Positions 1,517 through 64,000 of a stretch of 64,000 nucleotides of DNA are shown one piece after another. The notes below the pieces were generated by a model. The model saw only the letters and a list, made by a program, of their open reading frames with translations. It was not told the DNA's origin and made no database searches. How positions within the stretch are numbered: position 1 is the stretch's first letter; each line of letters starts with the position of its first letter. Origin of the DNA: Deltaproteobacteria bacterium (GTDB taxonomy: Bacteria > Desulfobacterota > Syntrophia > Syntrophales > UBA2210). Location: the NCBI GenBank assembly GCA_016933965.1, contig JAFGTS010000036.1, positions 1-64,000 of the forward strand, given 5' to 3'. The position numbers and the translations under genes are program-made.

Positions 1517-1942
1517 ATGGCAAAAAAGGTAATCGCGAACATTAAGCTCCAGATCCAGGCGGGCAAGGCGACACCGTCGCCGCCGATCGGCCCGGCCCTG
1601 GGCCAGCATGGCGTGAACATCATGGAATTCTGCAAGGCGTACAACGCCTTGACGCAAAGCCAGGAAGGAACGATCATTCCTGTCATTATTACCGTTTACG
1701 CCGACAAGTCGTTCACCTTTATCACCAAGACACCGCCCACGTCGGTTCTTCTGAAACAGGCGGCCAAGATCGCCAAGGGCGCCGGTGACCCGAAGCGTGA
1801 GCAGGTGGGGCAGGTGACGGAAAAGCAGCTGAAAGAGATTGCCGAGGTCAAGTATAAAGACCTGAACGCGGTTGACATGGAAGGCGCGTTGAAGATCGTT
1901 GAAGGCACGGCGCGGTCCATGGGCATCGAGATTATTCCTTAA
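1517..1942 (+). CDS. rplK: 50S ribosomal protein L11
   Basis: L11 forms the GTPase-associated centre of the large subunit together with L10 and L7/L12. The 141-residue protein has the N-terminal proline-rich motif [20 protein letters not shown] (residues 14-33), where thiopeptides act, and the C-terminal RNA-binding domain ending MGIEIIP. Its length equals the family norm. The ATG has an AAGGGG Shine-Dalgarno six bases upstream. rplA follows after 21 bases. Confidence 0.98.
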
Positions 1943-1963
1943 AACGGTTCGGAGTTTGAGCAC

Positions 1964-2674
1964 ATGTCTAACAGGGGCAAACGATACACGGAAGTAAAAA
2001 AGAAAATTGAGCCGGGCACGCGGTATACGCTGCGTGAGGCAATGGAAATAACCCTTTCGTCGGCGGGCGCGAAGTTCGACGAAACGGTCGATGCGGCCAT
2101 TCGGCTCGGAGTGAATCCGAAACACGCGGACCAGATGGTTCGCGGGAGCTGTGTCCTTCCCCACGGGCTGGGGAAAACGGTCAGGGTGCTCGTCTTCGCG
2201 AAGGGTGACAAGGAACGCGAAGCCCTTGAGGCGGGTGCCGATTACGCGGGTTCCGACGAGCTGGTCGAAAAGATCAAGGGAGGGTGGCTCGACTTTGACC
2301 GGGTGGTGGCGACCCCTGATATCATGGGGACCGTCGGCAAGCTCGGGAAGATCCTGGGCCCCCGGGGCCTGATGCCCAATCCCAAGGTTGGTACGGTGAC
2401 CTTCGACGTGAAGGACGCCGTTCAGGAACTCAAGGCAGGTAAAGTAGAATTCAGAGTGGAAAAAGCAGGTATTGTCCATAGTCCCGTCGGAAAAGCATCC
2501 TTCGGCGCCGACAAGCTCGTGGAGAACCTCCTGGCGCTGATCGATACGATTATAAAACTGAAACCAGCATCGAGTAAGGGAACCTACCTCAAAACCATTT
2601 CACTTTCCACAACCATGGGTCCGGGAGTCAAGGTGGATACTACGGATGTGAGGAACATTTTAAGAGCGGGATAA
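1964..2674 (+). CDS. rplA: 50S ribosomal protein L1
   Basis: L1 builds the mobile stalk near the E site and represses its own operon. The 236-residue protein has the family core including [20 protein letters not shown] (about 126-145) and the C-terminal [20 protein letters not shown] region. Its length is standard. It forms a two-gene unit with rplK. The following 167-base gap holds the L10 leader. Confidence 0.98.
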
Positions 2675-2686
2675 GATCAAAAACAT

Positions 2687-2791
2687 AAAGTCAGAGACAG
2701 CAGGTACAGGATGTTTAATCGAACAGCGTTTCGGCCTGCCGAGACAATCGTGGTGTTTTCTGTTTTCTTCCTGTATGGGCGGTCTGACTTT
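2687..2791 (+). promoter_or_regulatory. Ribosomal protein L10 leader (rplJL autoregulation)
   Basis: The gap before rplJ has long-range pairing: AAAGTCAGA (2687-2695) with TCTGACTTT (2783-2791), ACAGG (2706-2710) with CCTGT (2770-2774), and GCAGG (2700-2704) with CCTGC (2735-2739). This multi-stem arrangement matches the known L10 leader class, which binds L10-L12 and represses rplJL translation. The alternative pairings suggest mutually exclusive folds. A covariance-model match to the Rfam L10 leader would confirm it. Confidence 0.85.
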
Positions 2792-2841
2792 CATGGATTG
2801 TAAAAGCAGGGGGTTAGCCCCTATCGAAAGGAGGCCGGAGA

Positions 2842-3369
2842 TTGGATCGAAGTACAAAAGAACAGGTTGTTGCCGAGCTTCACGGTAAGCTGAAAGACAC
2901 GAAGTTGGCCGTCCTTGTCGACTACAAGGGCATGAACGTGCGACAGATAACCGAGTTGCGCAATCAGCTCCGCAAGGTCGACGGCGAGATGAAGGTTGTG
3001 AAGAACAGTCTTCTCAGGATCGCCCTCAAGGATACGGACTTCGTGCTCCTGGAGGAGTACCTCAAGGACCCCCGGGCGCTTATCATGAATTACGGCGATG
3101 TGGTTGAACCGACGAAGGCTCTCGTGGAGTTCGCGAAGAAGAACGCCGAACTGGAGGTCATCACGGGCGTTCTCGAAGGCAGGCTCCTGACGGGCGACCA
3201 GATCAAGGTGCTTGCCGATCTGCCGAGCAAGGACGTGCTCATCGCGAAACTGCTTTCGCTCATGGTGGCCGTGCAGACACAACTGGTCACCGTCCTCAGC
3301 GCCGTTCCGAGGAGCTTCGTACAGGTCCTTGAAGCCTATCGGGTGAAAAGAGAAGAATCTGAGAATTAA
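2842..3369 (+). CDS. rplJ: 50S ribosomal protein L10
   Basis: L10 anchors the L7/L12 dimers to the ribosome stalk. The 175-residue protein has the expected N-terminal RNA-binding domain (LAVLVDYKGMNVRQITELRN) and a C-terminal helix that binds L12. The start is TTG at 2842, chosen because an AAAGGAGG Shine-Dalgarno ends seven bases before it. The gene lies directly downstream of the L10 leader and 24 bases before rplL. Confidence 0.97.
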   Translation: MDRSTKEQVVAELHGKLKDTKLAVLVDYKGMNVRQITELRNQLRKVDGEMKVVKNSLLRIALKDTDFVLLEEYLKDPRALIMNYGDVVEPTKALVEFAKKNAELEVITGVLEGRLLTGDQIKVLADLPSKDVLIAKLLSLMVAVQTQLVTVLSAVPRSFVQVLEAYRVKREESEN

Positions 3370-6800: not shown

Positions 6801-7935
6801 CGTCGTGTCGCGCCTGATGGACACGAAGAAACGGAAGATCCTGATCAAGAAGGGCGAGGTTATCACCGACGAACTTCTGAAGAAGACCCCCTTCGAATTC
6901 TGGAAGGAGATCGCCCTTGACGACGCGGATGCGGAAGAGCGCTTGAAACGGATCTGCAGGAACCTCGACGACAAGATAGATGTGATAGACAATTTCTTCG
7001 CCGAGCGGATCGAAAAGGTCAAAATGGGCGATGAGCTGCCGCCGGGCGTCATCAAGCTGGTCAAGGTCTACGTGGCGATCAAGCGGAAGCTTTCCGTGGG
7101 CGACAAGATGGCGGGACGGCACGGGAACAAGGGTGTTCTTTCCCGCATCCTTCCCGAGGAGGACATGCCCTTCTTTGAAGACGGGACACCCGTGGACATC
7201 ATTCTGAACCCCCTTGGCGTTCCTTCCCGCATGAACGTGGGCCAGATCCTGGAAACGCACCTGGGGTGGGCTGCCAAGAAGCTGGGAGAGGATGTGCAGC
7301 GGCTTCTGGAAGAACGTTTCAGCGTCAAGAAAATAAAAGAAGAGCTGAAGAAGCTGTACAACACTGATGAGTTCTCCCGCTTTGTGGACGGCATGAACGA
7401 GGGCGAGTTGAAGCGGTTCGTGTCGAAACTCAAAAGTGGTATTCCCATGGCATCTCCCGTTTTCGACGGGGCCAAGGAAGGCGAGATCAAGGAAATGCTG
7501 AAGATGTCGTCCCTTCCCGAGGTAGGGCAGGTCAGACTCTATGATGGGCGGACAGGTGAGCCCTTCGACCAGCAGATCACGGTGGGCATGATCTACATGC
7601 TCAAGCTCCACCACCTGGTCGATGACAAGATCCATGCCCGGTCAATCGGTCCCTATTCGCTGGTGACCCAGCAGCCGCTGGGCGGGAAGGCCCAGTTCGG
7701 CGGGCAGCGTCTCGGCGAGATGGAGGTCTGGGCCATCGAGGCCTACGGAGCGGCCTATTCATTGCAGGAATTTCTCACCGTCAAGTCTGATGACGTGGCG
7801 GGGAGAACAAGAATGTACGAGTCAATTGTTAAGGGCGATCATACACTGGAACCGGGGTTGCCGGAGTCGTTCAATGTCCTCGTAAAGGAATTGCAGGGTC
7901 TCGGTATCGATGTGGAAATGATAGAGGACGCCTGA
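3844..7935 (+). CDS. rpoB: DNA-directed RNA polymerase subunit beta
   Basis: This is the catalytic beta subunit of RNA polymerase. The 1363-residue protein carries the complete rifampicin-binding cluster, [20 protein letters not shown] followed by [10 protein letters not shown]. The Gln, Asp, His and Ser positions altered in resistant mutants are wild type. The C-terminal [20 protein letters not shown] block is intact. ATG 3844 is preferred over the in-frame GTG at 3841 because AAGGG (3834-3838) is five bases away. It is a separate polypeptide, not fused to RpoC. Confidence 0.98.
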
Positions 7936-7989
7936 GATACCGATGATCGGCCCTCAAGGAAAACGATACTATAAAGGGAGTTGAATCCA

Positions 7990-12141
<4,152 letters not shown>

Positions 12142-55374: not shown

Positions 55375-56352
55375 GTGGCGACTTCATCTTCCGATCAATC
55401 GCGCAATTCCACCAAACGTGACAGATACACGGGAAGGCCGATGGATTTCTGGCGATTGCACGGCTGGCGGCATCCTTTCCTGTTCTTGCATGCAATTTAT
55501 TATTTCGGTGATCCGAGAAAATATATCGCAAAGTTGATCAAGATATTCAACTTCGTTGATAAACATGTTCCTAAAAGGATCTGGCAGCTCCCGTTCATAA
55601 AACCCATTGTTACCTACCTGCCCGGACGATATCATGGAAAAGTCCTCACGATCGATCATGTCAGCAAAATAATAAACCTGAATGAGGACATACAGGTCGA
55701 TGTGCAGCGGGCAAAACGGGTGCTTACGTACGAGCACGTGAATCAGATCGTTATCAATAGCCCGGATACGATCGCTCTCGGTGACTGCATCTGTCGCAGC
55801 CTGGTAGAGAATCCCTGCAAGCCGAACCACGTGTGCATGTTTATCGGCGAACCCTTTTCCACCTATGCCGTCAAGCGCGGAAAGAAGCTGAACATCCACT
55901 ATGCCACCAAGGAAGAGGCACTCGACGCGATCCGTCAGGCCCATGAAGCAGGCTTCGTACACAATGCCTTTTTCAAGGATGCCGCCGGGGACCGGCTCTT
56001 TGCGCTCTGCAATTGCTGCAGTTGCTGCTGCAAGGGGATCGAGCTGACAAATATTTTCAAGGATATTTATGCCTCCGACGTGCCGACGCCACGGATGGTC
56101 GAGCCTTCAGGGTATTTTGCCGTTCATGACGATGACCGCTGCATTGGATGCGGGACCTGTGAAGATGCCTGTCATTTCAATGCGGTGACGATGGTCTCCG
56201 TCGATGGCGGTCAGAAAGCCCGGATTGATCATTTTCGGTGTTTCGGCTGCGGTATCTGCGTGGACAAGTGCGAAAGCGGCGCTATCAGGCTTGTAAAGGA
56301 CCCCTATGGGACCATGCCGCTCGACATGGATCAGTTGCTCGATAAAAAATGA
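55375..56352 (+). CDS. 4Fe-4S ferredoxin with extra Cys-rich motifs
   Basis: The 325-residue protein ends with two classical [4Fe-4S] motifs, CIGCGTCEDAC and CFGCGICVDKC. Before them are two unusual Cys groups: GDCICRSLVENPCKPNHVC (about 138-156) and LCNCCSCCCKG (about 213-223), which could hold more clusters. There is no signal peptide or obvious membrane segment. It starts at GTG 55375 after AAGGGGG. It lies upstream of a GMC-type flavoprotein on the same strand and is probably its electron partner. I do not recognise a named family. Confidence 0.85.
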   Translation: MATSSSDQSRNSTKRDRYTGRPMDFWRLHGWRHPFLFLHAIYYFGDPRKYIAKLIKIFNFVDKHVPKRIWQLPFIKPIVTYLPGRYHGKVLTIDHVSKIINLNEDIQVDVQRAKRVLTYEHVNQIVINSPDTIALGDCICRSLVENPCKPNHVCMFIGEPFSTYAVKRGKKLNIHYATKEEALDAIRQAHEAGFVHNAFFKDAAGDRLFALCNCCSCCCKGIELTNIFKDIYASDVPTPRMVEPSGYFAVHDDDRCIGCGTCEDACHFNAVTMVSVDGGQKARIDHFRCFGCGICVDKCESGAIRLVKDPYGTMPLDMDQLLDKK

Positions 56353-56535
56353 TAAAGGCGGCAATGGAACGCGCCGGCAACGGTATGTGGCGACGCCTCC
56401 ATTCCCGCGGACGCGAAGATCCGGGACAGGACCGGAAGCCTGATCACATCCGGCATGACAGGTGGTATCTTTCGTTGCCGGAGGAATAAATAAACGTCGT
56501 ATGGACAGGGGGATGTTGCACAAAAGGAGGAATAC

Positions 56536-57849
56536 ATGAAACCGGTCAGAAAAATGTCTGCGGATTATGTGGTTGTCGGCTCAGGCCCCGGCGGGGCTAC
56601 CGTAGCGCGAGAACTCTCAGTGCTCGGCAAAAGAGTCATCCTTCTTGAACGGGGAGCTGATCACCAGTTTTACGGCAATCTCGTAGGCTGCGCTTTCATG
56701 CTTGAAAGACTGGGTTTTACCTGGACCGTGGAAGGCCACAGTATGCTCAGGGCCTTAACGACGGGGGGAAGTTCCATGATATACGGCGCCGCCGCCATCG
56801 ATCCGCCGAAGTGGCTGAAGCAGAATCACGATATCGACCTTGCGCCCTATGTCACGGCCCTGAAGAATGAGCTCCGCATTAAACCGACCCCCGATCATAT
56901 GATCGGGCCCAGAGCGAAGATGATCATGAAAGCGGCCCATGATCTCGATATTCCATGGGAGCCCATGAACAAATTTATCGATCATGATCGCTGTGACCAG
57001 AAATGCCCGGAATGTTTGTATGGATGTAAAAAAGAGGGTGTCAAGTGGACCGCCAGGGATTACGCGTATGAAGCCGTCAGGAACGGGGCGACACTGATAA
57101 ACAAGGCCACGGTGCGGAAGGTCAAGATCACGAATGGAAAAGCCCTGGGTGTTATCGCCGACACACCGGGCGGAAGGCTTGACGTAACATCCAAGGTCAC
57201 CGTTATTTCCGCCGGCGGTCTGGGGACTCCGACGATCCTGCTGCGTTCCGGCCTGACGGAAGCAGGTGACCGGCTCTTTGCGGATCCCCTGATCATCACG
57301 TACGGGACCGTTGGAAAAGATGTACCCGATTCCCCCAAGGAACCGCCGATGCTCTGCGGGAAACTCGACAATGCGGACGGCCTTCTCATCGGTGACCTCC
57401 CCGAACCCCTCCCCATGTTCATCCTGCAGATGTTCTACAAGGGTATCGGAAAAATGAGGCACGCACTGGACTTTTCACGAAGACTTGCCGTCATGGTCAA
57501 GGTCCGGGACGAGATGGAAGGATACGTCAGGGCCGACGAAACCTGTTCAAAACACTATACACTGCCCGACCTGGAAAAAATGGAACGGGGGATCGAAATT
57601 TCAAGGCAGATCCTTTTGAAAGCCGGGTGCGATCCGCGTTCCATCGTTTCCACCCCTCCGAGGGCCGCCCACCCCGGCAGCACCGCCCGGATCGGGAAGA
57701 TCGTCGACAGGGACCTGGAGACAAAGATCAAAAATCTGTATGTCTGTGATGCCAGTGTGCTCCCGGAATCCTGCGGGATCCCGCCCGTGCTGACGATACT
57801 CGCGTTCGGCAAACGACTTGTTGGTGAGCGCCTGAAACATGTCGTGTGA
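56536..57849 (+). CDS. GMC-type FAD-dependent oxidoreductase with Cys cluster
   Basis: The 437-residue flavoprotein has the FAD loop VVGSGPGGATVARELSVLGK and an ERG motif. Its GMC C-terminal region is HPGSTARIG...NLYVCDASVLPESCGIPPVL, with the likely active-site His. Residues about 155-170 (CDQKCPECLYGCKKEG) hold four Cys spaced C-x3-C-x2-C-x3-C, which may bind an Fe-S cluster. The upstream ferredoxin suggests that electrons pass to or from it rather than to oxygen. An AAAGGAGG site precedes ATG 56536. The substrate is unknown; alcohols or steroid-like compounds are family possibilities. Confidence 0.88.
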   Translation: MKPVRKMSADYVVVGSGPGGATVARELSVLGKRVILLERGADHQFYGNLVGCAFMLERLGFTWTVEGHSMLRALTTGGSSMIYGAAAIDPPKWLKQNHDIDLAPYVTALKNELRIKPTPDHMIGPRAKMIMKAAHDLDIPWEPMNKFIDHDRCDQKCPECLYGCKKEGVKWTARDYAYEAVRNGATLINKATVRKVKITNGKALGVIADTPGGRLDVTSKVTVISAGGLGTPTILLRSGLTEAGDRLFADPLIITYGTVGKDVPDSPKEPPMLCGKLDNADGLLIGDLPEPLPMFILQMFYKGIGKMRHALDFSRRLAVMVKVRDEMEGYVRADETCSKHYTLPDLEKMERGIEISRQILLKAGCDPRSIVSTPPRAAHPGSTARIGKIVDRDLETKIKNLYVCDASVLPESCGIPPVLTILAFGKRLVGERLKHVV

Positions 57850-58076: not shown

Positions 58077-59603
58077 ATGGATCTTGGTGGACTGGTCGCA
58101 CGAAATGCCCGGATGATTCCCGACAAGGAAGCGGTCATTTACGGAGACAAACGGTACACGTGGAAAGAGGCAAATGACAAGGTAAATACCGTATCGAACG
58201 TCCTTCTCAAAGGAGGGCTCAAGAAAGGAGACAAGGTCGCCTTCTGGATGTTCAATTCGGACATGTTCTTCTTTGTTTTCTACGGCATTGTGAAAGCGGG
58301 AGGTGTGGCCGTTCCCGTCAACTTCCGTCTCGCCTCGCCGGAGGCCGAATATATCTTCAATAACTGCGATGCCGTGGCCTTGATCGTTGATGACGTCTTC
58401 GAGCCCGTCGTTCGCGAGATGAAGCCGCGCCTCACGAATATCAAGGCCTTCTACACGGCGGGCAGCGGGCGTTTCGAGGGGTTCGATGCCCTCGAAGACG
58501 TGCTCGCATCGGGCGATACGAGTGAGCCCGGCATAGAGGTGGACGAGTTTGATGAGAGCGAGGTCCTCTATACATCGGGAACCACGGGAAGACCGAAGGG
58601 CGCGCTCTTCGTCCATCACAATCACATTACCCTGGTGACCACGATGGCAGCCCTGGTGGAGATCCACCCGAAGGACGTCATCCTTCACGCCGCGCCGCTC
58701 TTTCATTCGGCGGAGCTGAATCTCTATATGAACCCCGGCACATACCTCGGGGCCACCCATGTTATCATGAGGGACTTCATCCCCGACAAGGTCCTCGGAC
58801 TGATCGAAAGGGAAAAGGTGACCCAGTTCTTCGGGGCGCCGATCATGTTCACCTTCATGATGATGGTTCCCGACTTTGAAAAATACGATCTCTCTTCCAT
58901 CCGGTATTACGGCTATGGCGCGGCCCCCATGGCGGCGGAGTCGGTGCGGGCCATGATGGAGAAATTCAAGTCGACGAACTTTTTCTGCCTCTGCGGTTTT
59001 ACCGAAGGCGGCCCCGGCGGTATCGGCCTCCTGCCGGAGGATCAGATACGAAAGGCCGGCGCGGGAGGGAAATACGTCGTCAACATGGAATGCCGCCTTG
59101 TCGACGATGCGGGGAACACCGTCACCGAACCGGGTGTGGTGGGCGAGCTCGTCATCAAGGGTGAAACCATCATGAAGGGATACTACAAGAACCCGGAGGC
59201 GACGAAGGACGCGATAAAGGACGGCTGGGTCCATTCGGGAGACCTGGGCGTCATGGATGATGAGGGGTACATCACGCTGGTGGACAGAAAGAAGGACATG
59301 ATCATCACCGGCGGAGAAAATGTCTACAGCAAGGAAGTGGAAGACGCCATATACGAAAACCCGAAGATAAAGGAGGCCGTCATCGTCGGTGTTCCCCATC
59401 CGGACTGGGGGGAAACGGTGGTCGCCGTGACAAGTCTCCAGGAAAATACCACCCTTACCCTTGATGAGTTGCGGGAATTCCTGAAGACCAGGATCGCCGA
59501 TTACAAGATCCCTCGACGGCTTGAGATCATGGGCCAGTTGCCGAGGAACGTGTCGGGGAAGGTCCTGAAATATCAGCTGAGAGAATCCCTGCAGAAGAAG
59601 TAA
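58077..59603 (+). CDS. AMP-dependent acyl-CoA synthetase (first)
   Basis: The 508-residue ligase activates a carboxylate with ATP to an acyl-AMP and then to the CoA thioester. It has the P-loop YTSGTTGRPKGALFVHH, the adenylation core YGYGAAPMA and SGDLGVMDDEGYITLVDRKK, and the C-terminal catalytic Lys in NVSGKVLK. ATG 58077 is chosen for AGGGGAGG seven bases before it. A terminator after the stop may reduce transcription of the next two genes. The substrate cannot be read from the sequence. Confidence 0.92.
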   Translation: MDLGGLVARNARMIPDKEAVIYGDKRYTWKEANDKVNTVSNVLLKGGLKKGDKVAFWMFNSDMFFFVFYGIVKAGGVAVPVNFRLASPEAEYIFNNCDAVALIVDDVFEPVVREMKPRLTNIKAFYTAGSGRFEGFDALEDVLASGDTSEPGIEVDEFDESEVLYTSGTTGRPKGALFVHHNHITLVTTMAALVEIHPKDVILHAAPLFHSAELNLYMNPGTYLGATHVIMRDFIPDKVLGLIEREKVTQFFGAPIMFTFMMMVPDFEKYDLSSIRYYGYGAAPMAAESVRAMMEKFKSTNFFCLCGFTEGGPGGIGLLPEDQIRKAGAGGKYVVNMECRLVDDAGNTVTEPGVVGELVIKGETIMKGYYKNPEATKDAIKDGWVHSGDLGVMDDEGYITLVDRKKDMIITGGENVYSKEVEDAIYENPKIKEAVIVGVPHPDWGETVVAVTSLQENTTLTLDELREFLKTRIADYKIPRRLEIMGQLPRNVSGKVLKYQLRESLQKK

Positions 59604-59647
59604 AAGGTGTCTGTATCCATAAAAGCACCTGTAAGTCGATACATACA

Positions 59648-59677
59648 GGGGGCCGGTGTATCGGCCCCCTTTTTTTA
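59648..59677 (+). terminator. Intrinsic terminator between ligase and dehydratase-like genes
   Basis: The stem GGGGGCCG (59648-59655) pairs perfectly with CGGCCCCC (59662-59669) and is followed by eight T or T-rich bases. It lies 45 bases after the first ligase and 43 bases before the next start, so it may act as a partial barrier or define a separate transcript. Confidence 0.9.
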
Positions 59678-59719
59678 CGTGATACACATATATCCGATCA
59701 GAGGAGGAGACCATAATCA

Positions 59720-61156
59720 ATGGGCATCAAAACGAGCGCGGAATACCTTGAAAGCCTGAAGAAACTGAAACCGAACGTGTACATCGCTGGCGAGAAGGTT
59801 GAGGATGTCTCGGCGAACAAGTTCTTCCAGCCTTCCATTCAGGAGATCTGTAAATTCTACGATTGGACCAATGACCCGGAAATGCGCGACGACTTTGTCT
59901 ACTGGTCGTCCCTTGTCAATGAAGAGGTCAGTTTCTGGACCCATATCAGGGAGACGAAGGAGGCGTTTGTCAAACTCCTGGAGATCATGAAGAAGAACAA
60001 CGCGCGAAACTTCTGTTCCTTCTGCATGGGCATCGGCCCCTGTGTTTTCTGGGCCACCACCTACGATATCGATCAGGCAAAGGGCACCAATTATCAGGAA
60101 CGGCTCAAGGAATTTTTCAAAAAACTCCAGCGGGAAGACCTGCGGTTCTGTCTCGGTGTCATGGATCCCAAGGGCGACCGGTCGCTCCCGCCGAGCAGGC
60201 AGGCCGACCCCGATCTTCACCTTCGCATTGTCGACAGGAACAGCGAGGGCATTGTCGTCAACGGTGCCAAGATGCACACCTCGAGCGCGCCGCTCGCCCA
60301 TTACATCTTCTGCGCCCCCGGCGGGTTTCTCGCCGAGGAGGACAAGGACTATGCCGTCTCCTTTGCAATTCCCATCGACACAAAGGGGATCACCTACATA
60401 ACCCGTCCCTCGCCGTGCCCCCTGAACGCGACCCCGATGACCAATCCCGCCAGCATCCGGCACAACATGGTCGAGTGTTTGACCGTGTTCGACAACGTGT
60501 TCGTCCCCTGGGAAAATGTCTTCATGGCCGGTGAATGGGAATTTACCGACCGTTTCATCCACTATTTTTCTTCCTACGGCAGGCCCGTAAAGGCCACCTG
60601 CATTTCGGCCCGGACCGACATGATCATCGGGGCGGCGTCCCTCATCTCCGAATACAACGGTGTCTCCCGGGCAAGCCATATACGGAGCAAGATCAACGAA
60701 ATGATGATCACCTCCAATATCGGGTGGGGGTGCGTCCTCGGCGCCGTGGCCAATTCGGTCCAGCATCCAAGCGGCATTCCGATCCCCGATATATCTCTCA
60801 GCAATTCCGGTCTCTATTACAGCAGGCTCAGATTCGTTGAATTCCTGGGCATGCTGATGGAGATCGCCGGCGGCGTGGTCACCACCATGCCGATCGAGGC
60901 GGATCTCAAAAACGAGGAAACGTGGCCCCTCATCGAAAAATACTTCAAGGCAAAAAGCGATATTCCCACCGAGGACCGGCTGAAGCTTCTTTATTTTATC
61001 CAGGAACTCACCGCGTCGCGATTCGGCGGCTATTTCCTTTCCAGCGCCATCTGCGCCGTGGGAACACCGGAGACCAATAAACTCGAAGTGCTCAGAAACT
61101 ACGATCTTCTGACACAGATCGAAAACGTGAAGGACATCTGTAACATCAAAAGCTGA
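59720..61156 (+). CDS. 4-hydroxybutyryl-CoA dehydratase / HpaB family protein
   Basis: This 478-residue protein belongs to the fold shared by 4-hydroxybutyryl-CoA dehydratase and 4-hydroxyphenylacetate 3-hydroxylase: an N-terminal helical part, a beta barrel (DPKGDRSLPPSRQADPDLHL) and a helical C-terminus (PTEDRLKLLYFIQELTASRF). Candidate Fe-S ligands are C99, C102 and C108, then H281 and C294. In the characterised dehydratase they are C99, C103, H292 and C299, so spacing and possibly chemistry differ. AGGAGGAG precedes ATG 59720. It lies between two acyl-CoA ligase genes and may act on an acyl-CoA made by one of them. Confidence 0.85.
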   Translation: MGIKTSAEYLESLKKLKPNVYIAGEKVEDVSANKFFQPSIQEICKFYDWTNDPEMRDDFVYWSSLVNEEVSFWTHIRETKEAFVKLLEIMKKNNARNFCSFCMGIGPCVFWATTYDIDQAKGTNYQERLKEFFKKLQREDLRFCLGVMDPKGDRSLPPSRQADPDLHLRIVDRNSEGIVVNGAKMHTSSAPLAHYIFCAPGGFLAEEDKDYAVSFAIPIDTKGITYITRPSPCPLNATPMTNPASIRHNMVECLTVFDNVFVPWENVFMAGEWEFTDRFIHYFSSYGRPVKATCISARTDMIIGAASLISEYNGVSRASHIRSKINEMMITSNIGWGCVLGAVANSVQHPSGIPIPDISLSNSGLYYSRLRFVEFLGMLMEIAGGVVTTMPIEADLKNEETWPLIEKYFKAKSDIPTEDRLKLLYFIQELTASRFGGYFLSSAICAVGTPETNKLEVLRNYDLLTQIENVKDICNIKS

Positions 61157-61187
61157 AGATGCATACAGATCAAGGAAGGAGGAAGTC

Positions 61188-62798
61188 ATGACCGGACGCA
61201 ATCCAATGATCGAGCTCTTGCAGAAAGAGACAACGCTGGGAGAAATGATCGAAAACAGGGCCCGGGAACTGCCCGACAAAACGGCATTGATCTTCTATGA
61301 CACGGAGATCACGTACGGGGAGCTCAACGAGAAGATCGACGCGCTCGCCACGGCCCTTCTCGAACGGGGGATCACGGCACAGGACCGCATAGCCATTATC
61401 ATGCCCACGAGGCCGGAGTTTCTGTATCTCTGGTTTGCCGCCTCGAAGATCGGCGCCTCTGTGGTGGGCCTCAATTTCCGTTACCAGCAGGAAGAAGTCG
61501 TTTACATGGTCACCAATTCAAAGCCGTCGGTCCTTGTCTGTATCAACGAATTCGCCTTCACCAACTACAATACCTTTCTCTCGGAGATCAAGGACAGGAT
61601 CCCCTCGGTAAAGCAGTTCATCTTTCTCGGGAAGACGGAATTTCCCGGTGCCATCGACCTCGATACGCTCATCGCGACCGAACCGGATCGTGCCGCGTTA
61701 TCGAAAGCGGCGCAGGCAGTGACGGGGAAAAATGATAATTTCATCATTTACACCTCGGGCACGACGGGAAAACCGAAAGGGGCCGTCCTGACCCAGAAAA
61801 GCATCCTGGCGATGATGAAAAGCTGGACAAAGAACCTGGAGCTGTCACCGGAAGACAGGATCCTCTGCATCCTTCCCCTGAACCATGTGGGAGGAGGCAC
61901 GATCATGGCCCTCTCTTCGCTCGCGAGCGGCATCACCCTCGCTCTGCACGATATGTTCGTCCCCGACCAGGTCGTTGATATAATCCGGAAGCACAACATC
62001 ACCCTCTTCGGCGCCGTTCCCACTGTTTTTGAGATCCTCTTTGCCGCCCTCCCCGATCTGGAGGCCGGCATGTTCCCAAGCGTTAAACTGACCGCCTACG
62101 GCGGTTCCCCGGCGACCCCGGAGGTCCTTAAGTTAATGAAAAAGAAGTTCGACGCGCCGGTCATGGCCTGTTACGGCTCCACTGAAACGAGCGGGTTCAT
62201 CACCTACACGAAACGGGACGATCCCTTTGAAAAGGCCATGACGGCAGGGCGGGTACCCGAAAGCGTCGAGGCGAAGATCGTCAAACCCGATACACGGGAA
62301 GAACTGCCCGCCGGGGAGATCGGTGAGATCGCCGTCAGATCCGACATGGTCTTCGACCGCTATCTCGACATGCCTGAGGAAACGCAACGGGCCTTCGATA
62401 AAGACGGCTGGTTCTACATGGGTGATCTCGGTTATTTTGACAAGGACGGTTTTCTCGTCATCGCGGGGAGAACCAAGGAGATGTATATCTCCGGAGGATT
62501 CAACGTCTATCCGAAGGAAGTTGAGGACTGCCTCGCTAACCATCCCGATGTGATCATGGCGGCTGTCGTCGGAGTTCCCCACGCCATCATGGGTGAAACG
62601 GGCGTCGCCTTCGTGATCAAGAACCCTGCGTCGGAGATCACCGGCGAGGACCTCAAGGAATTCTGCAAACCCAGACTGGCCGATTACAAGGTGCCGTCGA
62701 AGGTCTTTCTCGAAAACTCACTTCCCATGACCACCATCGGAAAGGTGCAGAAAACGGTCTTGCGGGAGACGGCCTGCGAGAGGCTGGGCCTGAAATAA
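61188..62798 (+). CDS. AMP-dependent acyl-CoA synthetase (second)
   Basis: This 536-residue ligase is clearly different from the one at 58077. Its motifs are YTSGTTGKPKGAVLTQKS, LTAYGGSPATPE, YMGDLGYFDKDGFLVIAGRT and the C-terminal TTIGKVQKT with the catalytic Lys. AAGGAGGAA precedes ATG 61188, 31 bases after the dehydratase-like gene, so the two are co-transcribed. A fatty- or aromatic-acid substrate is possible. Confidence 0.92.
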   Translation: MTGRNPMIELLQKETTLGEMIENRARELPDKTALIFYDTEITYGELNEKIDALATALLERGITAQDRIAIIMPTRPEFLYLWFAASKIGASVVGLNFRYQQEEVVYMVTNSKPSVLVCINEFAFTNYNTFLSEIKDRIPSVKQFIFLGKTEFPGAIDLDTLIATEPDRAALSKAAQAVTGKNDNFIIYTSGTTGKPKGAVLTQKSILAMMKSWTKNLELSPEDRILCILPLNHVGGGTIMALSSLASGITLALHDMFVPDQVVDIIRKHNITLFGAVPTVFEILFAALPDLEAGMFPSVKLTAYGGSPATPEVLKLMKKKFDAPVMACYGSTETSGFITYTKRDDPFEKAMTAGRVPESVEAKIVKPDTREELPAGEIGEIAVRSDMVFDRYLDMPEETQRAFDKDGWFYMGDLGYFDKDGFLVIAGRTKEMYISGGFNVYPKEVEDCLANHPDVIMAAVVGVPHAIMGETGVAFVIKNPASEITGEDLKEFCKPRLADYKVPSKVFLENSLPMTTIGKVQKTVLRETACERLGLK

Positions 62799-63233: not shown

Positions 63234-64000
63234 TCAATTGTCCTTATTGATGAGATTGACGATTATGGTCGTTATGACGTCTTTCTCCTTCGGATCGCTC
63301 ATGGCGATCATCAACGTTAATGCCACCAAAGCGTTATCCGCTATCCTTTTTACTCCGTCGGGTCTGTAAAGCAAACCATTCCGTTCAAGAAACCAGGTAA
63401 AGATGGCAGCGGCAATACGCTTGTTCCCGTCCACGAATGAATGATTCTTTACAATGAAATACAGGAGATGGGCTGCTTTTTCTTCGATGCTGGGATACAG
63501 GTCCTTGCCGTCAAACGTCTGGTAAATCGTATCGAGAGAGCTGCTGAACGAGTTATCCTTTTCTTGTCCGAACAGGGTGGAATCGCTGAATCTTCCCCGC
63601 ATTGTTTTAATTGCCTTCTTCGCCTCTTTATAGGTGATTTGTTGTACGGTCCGGTCGGATGTGCCGCCTAACTCAAGCTTTCCGTAGTCGTACCGGTCAA
63701 GCGTGTCCAGAGCATAGTTGAAATCACCGATGACTTTCAGAAGGCCTTCCGATTCAGTGGTAGAAAGAAGTTTGCGGTCTGTTATATTTTCGATGAGCCT
63801 GATCGATTGTTTGAGTGCTTCGTATTTTTCGATCTGTGCCTGCAATCTCTTTTCATTAAGGGCATAACCGGTAACGAGATACTCTTTCAGTATTTTGTTG
63901 GCCCAGATGCGGAACTGGGTGCCCCGTAATGAATTGACACGATAACCGACAGAGATGATCATATCCAGATTATAAAAATCGATATTACGCGTTATTTCCC
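63234..64000 (-). CDS. RhuM-Fic/Doc fusion protein (partial, runs off right edge)
   Basis: At least 255 codons are open from the window edge to the stop at 63234, so the true start lies beyond 64000. The N-terminal part (NIDFYNLDMIISVGYRVNSL, GTQFRIWANKILKEYLVTGY) is the RhuM virulence-protein domain. The C-terminal part has the Fic/Doc motif HSFVDGNKRIAAAIFTWFL, whose GNKR resembles Doc (which transfers phosphate to EF-Tu) more than AMP-transferring Fic (GNGR). Such fusions are often found in defence or mobile regions. No antitoxin gene is visible in the window. Confidence 0.88.
   Translation of the reverse strand, partial: EITRNIDFYNLDMIISVGYRVNSLRGTQFRIWANKILKEYLVTGYALNEKRLQAQIEKYEALKQSIRLIENITDRKLLSTTESEGLLKVIGDFNYALDTLDRYDYGKLELGGTSDRTVQQITYKEAKKAIKTMRGRFSDSTLFGQEKDNSFSSSLDTIYQTFDGKDLYPSIEEKAAHLLYFIVKNHSFVDGNKRIAAAIFTWFLERNGLLYRPDGVKRIADNALVALTLMIAMSDPKEKDVITTIIVNLINKDN

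Follow-up and report, generated by a model that had tools for sequence, protein, structure and literature searches.

A histidine-less clade of the 4-hydroxybutyryl-CoA dehydratase family, in part paired with an acyl-CoA ligase, in acid-degrading anaerobes

Gene organization and family of the enzyme

The window, by which we mean the whole stretch of DNA analyzed, comprises bases 1 to 64000 of a 72480-base contig from a genome of 2.85 Mb. Between positions 58077 and 62798 it contains three genes on the same strand (Table 1): a gene for a 478-residue protein of the AbfD/HpaB family lies between genes for two AMP-forming acyl-CoA ligases, which are only 31% identical to each other. All three genes are real, and the arrangement is as an earlier note on this DNA had described it. 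A strong rho-independent terminator lies between the upstream ligase and the gene for the enzyme. Just 3' of the downstream ligase, on the opposite strand (63234–63962), is a gene whose product has a RhuM N-terminal domain and a Fic domain.

The structures nearest to the enzyme by sequence are two 4-hydroxybutyryl-CoA dehydratases (6vjr and 1u8v), and the same two lead the fold comparison with Z scores of 39.5 and 38.8 over approximately 450 aligned residues. The structural alignment gives 30–32% identity to AbfD-type structures. HpaB monooxygenases reach Z scores of at most 35.1 (2yyg and 6qyh fall in the range 31–35), and acyl-CoA dehydrogenases and their relatives at most 18.9. The NCBIfam equivalog models for HpaB both fall below cut-off (TIGR02309, 176.2 against 480.2 bits; TIGR02310, 127.9 against 885.2 bits). 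Membership of the 4-hydroxybutyryl-CoA dehydratase family, which the earlier note had proposed for the middle gene, is thus borne out by both sequence and fold.

Table 1. Positions of the genes, the terminator, the residues discussed and three paralogs from the same genome
Feature	Position	Strand	Remarks
Upstream AMP-forming acyl-CoA ligase	58077..59603	+	PF00501+PF13193
Rho-independent terminator between upstream ligase and enzyme gene	59647..59670	+	10-pair stem, 8 GC, then T run; fold z -3.3
AbfD/HpaB-family enzyme, 478 aa	59720..61156	+	PF11794 260 bits, PF03241 161 bits
C99-S-F-C102, first two predicted cluster cysteines (CxxC)	60014..60025	+	invariant 16/16; CxxC also in sister clade
G287, position of AbfD histidine ligand H292	60578..60580	+	G/A/V in clade, never H
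K291-A-T-C294, K at AbfD Y296 and third predicted cluster cysteine at C299	60590..60601	+	K291 and C294 invariant in clade
E381, candidate replacement ligand or base	60860..60862	+	E 16/16; D in AbfD and all sisters; chemical role inferred
S442-A-I-C445, S at AbfD E455 and C at AbfD H458	61043..61054	+	S442 and C445 invariant 16/16
Downstream AMP-forming acyl-CoA ligase, conserved partner	61188..62798	+	PF00501+PF13193
HpaB-family paralog L004	G000:C31:21480-22796
HpaB-family paralog L002	G000:C35:4620-5912
HpaB-family paralog L005	G000:C55:3899-5266

Predicted active site

Residues 99, 103, 292 and 299 of 1u8v are cysteine, cysteine, histidine and cysteine, which we take, as established knowledge of AbfD, to be the ligands of its [4Fe-4S] cluster. 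In the alignment C102 of the enzyme corresponds to AbfD C103 and C294 to AbfD C299. C99 most likely replaces AbfD C99, the loop having become shorter and CxxxC having turned into CxxC; CxxxC persists in the basal member (L077), whose first cysteine falls in the AbfD C99 column. Alignment with AbfD therefore places three of the four ligands. At the fourth position there is a glycine, G287, which sits seven residues before C294, so that the AbfD spacing is unchanged and the histidine itself is gone. The cluster cysteines are absent from the aligned HpaB structure 2yyg. At the level of sequence, then, the loss of the histidine, the conservation of three cysteines and the replacement of several catalytic residues (below) are clear, and the enzyme is predicted to contain FAD and a [4Fe-4S] cluster.

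The ligand set of the earlier note (C99, C102, C108, H281 and C294) stands in part. All 16 members of the clade described below have C99, C102 and C294, and the replacement of AbfD CxxxC by C99xxC102 is confirmed. The supposed displacement of the histidine, with a gap of 13 residues to the cysteine instead of seven, came from choosing the wrong histidine; the ligand is absent rather than moved. H281 is shared by the window sequence and its two nearest relatives alone; the rest of the clade has Y, R, D, S, G, Q, N or K at this position. It also lies 13 residues before C294 in a long helix of the model (273–312), which by helix geometry would put it on the wrong face. C108 is a cysteine in only four of the 16 members, the others having N, S, A or G, and a further candidate, C144, is not conserved in L067 and L070.

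Three more residues of the AbfD site are replaced: Y296 by K291, E455 by S442 and K300 by I295 (I, T or V across the clade). The equivalent of AbfD E257, E252, is invariant in the clade. Two residues are candidates for the missing ligand. C445 would be a putative fourth ligand; the same position is asparagine in all 14 sister-group rows, and the model around it is poor (residues 440–463 have pLDDT below 50). In an alignment, E376, the base in medium-chain acyl-CoA dehydrogenase, would fall two residues past C445, and C445 would then be close to the substrate. The other candidate is E381. The coupling of histidine loss to the gain of C445 and E381 suggests a replacement of the ligand, but these changes form a single event on the stem branch and are not independent evidence for it. 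Glutamine replaces the histidine in L086 and L034, which lack the gain of C445; these are two other lineages with apparently independent losses.

Distribution of the clade and its paralogs

The histidine-less clade consists of 16 sequences, that of the window and 15 others with 52–91% identity to it, all of which have C99, C102, C294, K291, S442, C445 and E381 together with G, A or V at position 287. Its members come from Syntrophales genomes, Desulfatibacillum alkenivorans DSM 16219, another Desulfobacterota genome (G204), a Syntrophomonas MAG, a Bacillota MAG of the same class (Syntrophomonadia) and a planctomycete MAG. The planctomycete member lies on a small MAG contig that could be misbinned. 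Tree support is 100/100 for the clade and 100/98 for the wider clade with CxxC. The dN/dS values, where they can be estimated, are 0.05–0.09, which indicates purifying selection and argues that the residue pattern is not due to chance. As far as the sequences tell, this is a rare, conserved and previously uncharacterized branch found in acid-degrading anaerobes, and our literature search found no description of this histidine-less clade.

The sister group keeps the histidine, with the exception of L086, and has aspartate at 381. Sister-clade enzyme genes occur in an apparent operon (L049, 2–8710, and L050, 9120–17852) with genes for BKACE, paired thiolase-like, ChsH2-type OB-fold and acyl-CoA dehydrogenase proteins and an AMP-forming ligase.

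Four paralogs in the genome of the window bear on the interpretation. Three of them (L004, L002 and L005) have no cluster cysteines and keep the histidine, and are probably FAD-only proteins in an anaerobe. The three cysteines are present in 16 of 16 clade members and in none of these paralogs, and so appear to be kept together or lost together. Since the cysteine-free proteins retain the histidine, its loss in the clade may alter catalysis beyond the coordination of iron. The fourth paralog (L001) has the full AbfD residue set, and with it the organism has no need for a second enzyme acting on 4-hydroxybutyryl-CoA. The viral contigs searched yielded one relative only, of the AbfD type; this complete gene lies at 1825–3273 of an IMG/VR contig classed as viral (L094).

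Genomic context

We surveyed the 17 genomes that have the enzyme for orthologs of the downstream ligase. Six of them, including that of the window, have one, with 54–82% identity in the other five. In every one of the six the enzyme gene is followed immediately, on its own strand, by the ligase gene, with gaps of approximately 28–50 nt. No ortholog was found at the cut-off used in the remaining 11 genomes, so the partner is not universal. It is the sole conserved ligase partner of the enzyme gene. At the other loci retrieved, the upstream ligase was not found next to the enzyme, and in the window the terminator intervenes; this ligase is probably outside the unit. The cluster of ligase, enzyme and ligase proposed in the earlier note is thus reduced to the enzyme and the ligase that follows it. 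The best matches of the downstream ligase among solved relatives are fatty-acyl, malonyl, oxalate and 4-coumarate ligases, which is uninformative on its substrate.

Close orthologs of both enzyme and ligase also occur in the Bacillota MAG (L061, 77% identity), which suggests that the genes passed between syntrophs belonging to two phyla, unless the contig is misbinned.

A gene for a PadR-type regulator is found 5' of the enzyme–ligase pair in L044 and L087, and just upstream of the enzyme also in L066 and L069. Such a neighbor hints that the substrate of the enzyme may induce its expression. Genes for CoA-transferases lie near the enzyme in L070, L061 and L064, and genes for an enoyl-CoA hydratase and an acyl-CoA dehydrogenase in L064 and L069. 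These neighbors point to acyl-CoA catabolism. A 4Fe-4S dicluster protein and an adjoining GMC oxidoreductase are encoded just upstream in the window (55375–57849), and G020 and G039, which belong to a single genus, have a similar pair at a distance of approximately 6 kb from the gene for the enzyme. However, the best GMC match in D. alkenivorans (57%) is on a different contig from the enzyme, and we do not include the pair in the module, the link being weak.

Proposed function

AbfD is a textbook example of a redox-neutral radical dehydration that uses a flavin and a histidine-ligated cluster. The enzyme described here should not be filed as a 4-hydroxybutyryl-CoA dehydratase, since it lacks the defining histidine and departs from AbfD in the active site, nor should it be filed as HpaB; the automatic names (HpaB-type monooxygenase, 4-hydroxybutyryl-CoA dehydratase) are both misleading for these genes. 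It probably works in part like a radical enzyme of the AbfD family. Because Y296, E455 and K300 are replaced while the frame of the site is kept, the acid/base steps and the substrate probably differ from those of AbfD.

For the fourth ligand, the reaction type and the substrate we infer the following, and give the whole about an even chance of being right: an enzyme with flavin and a [4Fe-4S] cluster performs a redox-neutral elimination or isomerization at the gamma carbon of a ligase-supplied acyl-CoA other than 4-hydroxybutyryl-CoA. The downstream ligase of this two-gene module would convert a carboxylic acid to its CoA thioester, which in some relatives a neighboring CoA-transferase may make instead, and the AbfD-like enzyme would turn the thioester into an ordinary intermediate of beta-oxidation. 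Its AbfD fold would hold FAD and, most probably, a [4Fe-4S] cluster with C99, C102 and C294 as ligands. In AbfD, His292 binds the fourth iron; here that iron may be open for the substrate, as in the three-cysteine dehydratases, or held by C445 or E381. K291, S442, C445 and E252 would take over from the acid/base residues of AbfD. The chemistry would most likely be a flavin-radical, redox-neutral elimination or double-bond shift. For AbfD itself, the proposed route of 4-hydroxybutyryl-CoA dehydration has a flavin semiquinone and an allylic ketyl radical as intermediates (summarized in PMC13101534), and cluster ligands other than cysteine, such as glutamate, are known (PMC11574389).

In a more specific form, which we put forward only tentatively, this flavoenzyme of syntrophic anaerobes would have a three-cysteine [4Fe-4S] cluster whose open iron binds the acyl-CoA, and would combine aconitase-like Lewis-acid chemistry with flavin ketyl-radical chemistry in a new gamma-elimination. 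The 2-hydroxyacyl-CoA dehydratases have a three-cysteine [4Fe-4S] cluster with an open iron site that acts on or binds the acyl-CoA (PMC8473912).

The general idea of the earlier note, activation of a carboxylate followed by the reaction of an AbfD-family enzyme with changed cluster ligands on an acyl-CoA yet to be named, survives, and gains strength from the conservation of the clade and of the enzyme–ligase pair in six genomes; the ligand set as given and the 13-residue gap do not survive, and the upstream ligase probably does not belong to the unit.

It is unlikely, in our judgment, that the enzyme carries out some other acyl-CoA reaction in which the cluster serves as a redox relay, for example as an isomerase only, of the kind acting on vinylacetyl-CoA, or as an electron-transferring desaturase. 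With Y296 changed to K, E455 to S and K300 to I, T or V, water elimination need not have persisted, and the fold also resembles that of acyl-CoA dehydrogenases (Z approximately 18). However, no conserved electron-transfer partner gene was found beside the enzyme at the loci examined.

We are more doubtful still of a flavin-only enzyme, in which the cluster is lost or merely structural and FAD alone drives the elimination or isomerization. The missing histidine and the cysteine-free paralogs of the same genome are compatible with it, and there is a precedent in BbuA, an acyl-CoA dehydrogenase-type flavoenzyme with approximately 10% identity to the dehydratase that is proposed to remove trimethylamine from gamma-butyrobetainyl-CoA (PMC8364193). 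Against this, C99, C102 and C294 are invariant in the clade, whereas the cysteine-free paralogs lack all three.

That the enzyme is an ordinary 4-hydroxybutyryl-CoA dehydratase with another residue in place of His292 strikes us as improbable. It has the same fold, and CoA-transferases of the acetyl-CoA hydrolase/transferase type are among its neighbors, just as they are beside the AbfD-like paralog, but H292, Y296, E455 and K300 are all replaced, the clade is separate with identity of approximately 30%, and the same genome encodes the paralog with the full AbfD set. A two-component aromatic monooxygenase (HpaB) can practically be set aside, for although PF11794 and PF03241 bear the HpaB name, the HpaB models score far under cut-off (176 against 480 and 128 against 885), 2yyg lacks the cluster cysteines, and most members come from strictly anaerobic groups such as Syntrophales and Syntrophomonadia.

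Comparison with known systems

The enzyme shares domain families and overall fold with the HpaB monooxygenases (Z 31–35), but differs from them in its cluster cysteines, which 2yyg is without, and in missing the NCBIfam equivalog cut-offs. The CxxC sister clade (for example L085, L088, L091 and the L049 gene at 7259–8710) shares CxxC, a lysine at the Y296 position, C294 and the loss of E455; it differs in keeping the histidine (glutamine in L086) and in having asparagine at 445 and aspartate at 381. With the 2-hydroxyacyl-CoA dehydratases there is an analogy only. If the open-site reading is right, both would have a three-cysteine [4Fe-4S] cluster with an open site and act on an acyl-CoA, but those enzymes belong to another protein family, have no flavin in the described mechanism and require an ATP-driven activator.

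The 4-hydroxybutyryl-CoA dehydratases (AbfD, 1u8v; archaeal, 6vjr) are the nearest relatives of solved structure. The fold over approximately 450 residues, the three cluster cysteines, the KGDR motif and the glutamate at 257 (here E252) are shared. In contrast to AbfD, the clade has CxxC for CxxxC, G, A or V for His292, K for Y296, S for E455, C for H458, I, T or V for K300, and S or T for T190. A natural clade in which the cysteines stay while the histidine, the tyrosine and the glutamate are gone reveals what in the AbfD site can change, and is a direct test case for the role of the AbfD histidine ligand. It also points to an acid, as yet unknown, that is used by syntrophic degraders of at least two phyla.
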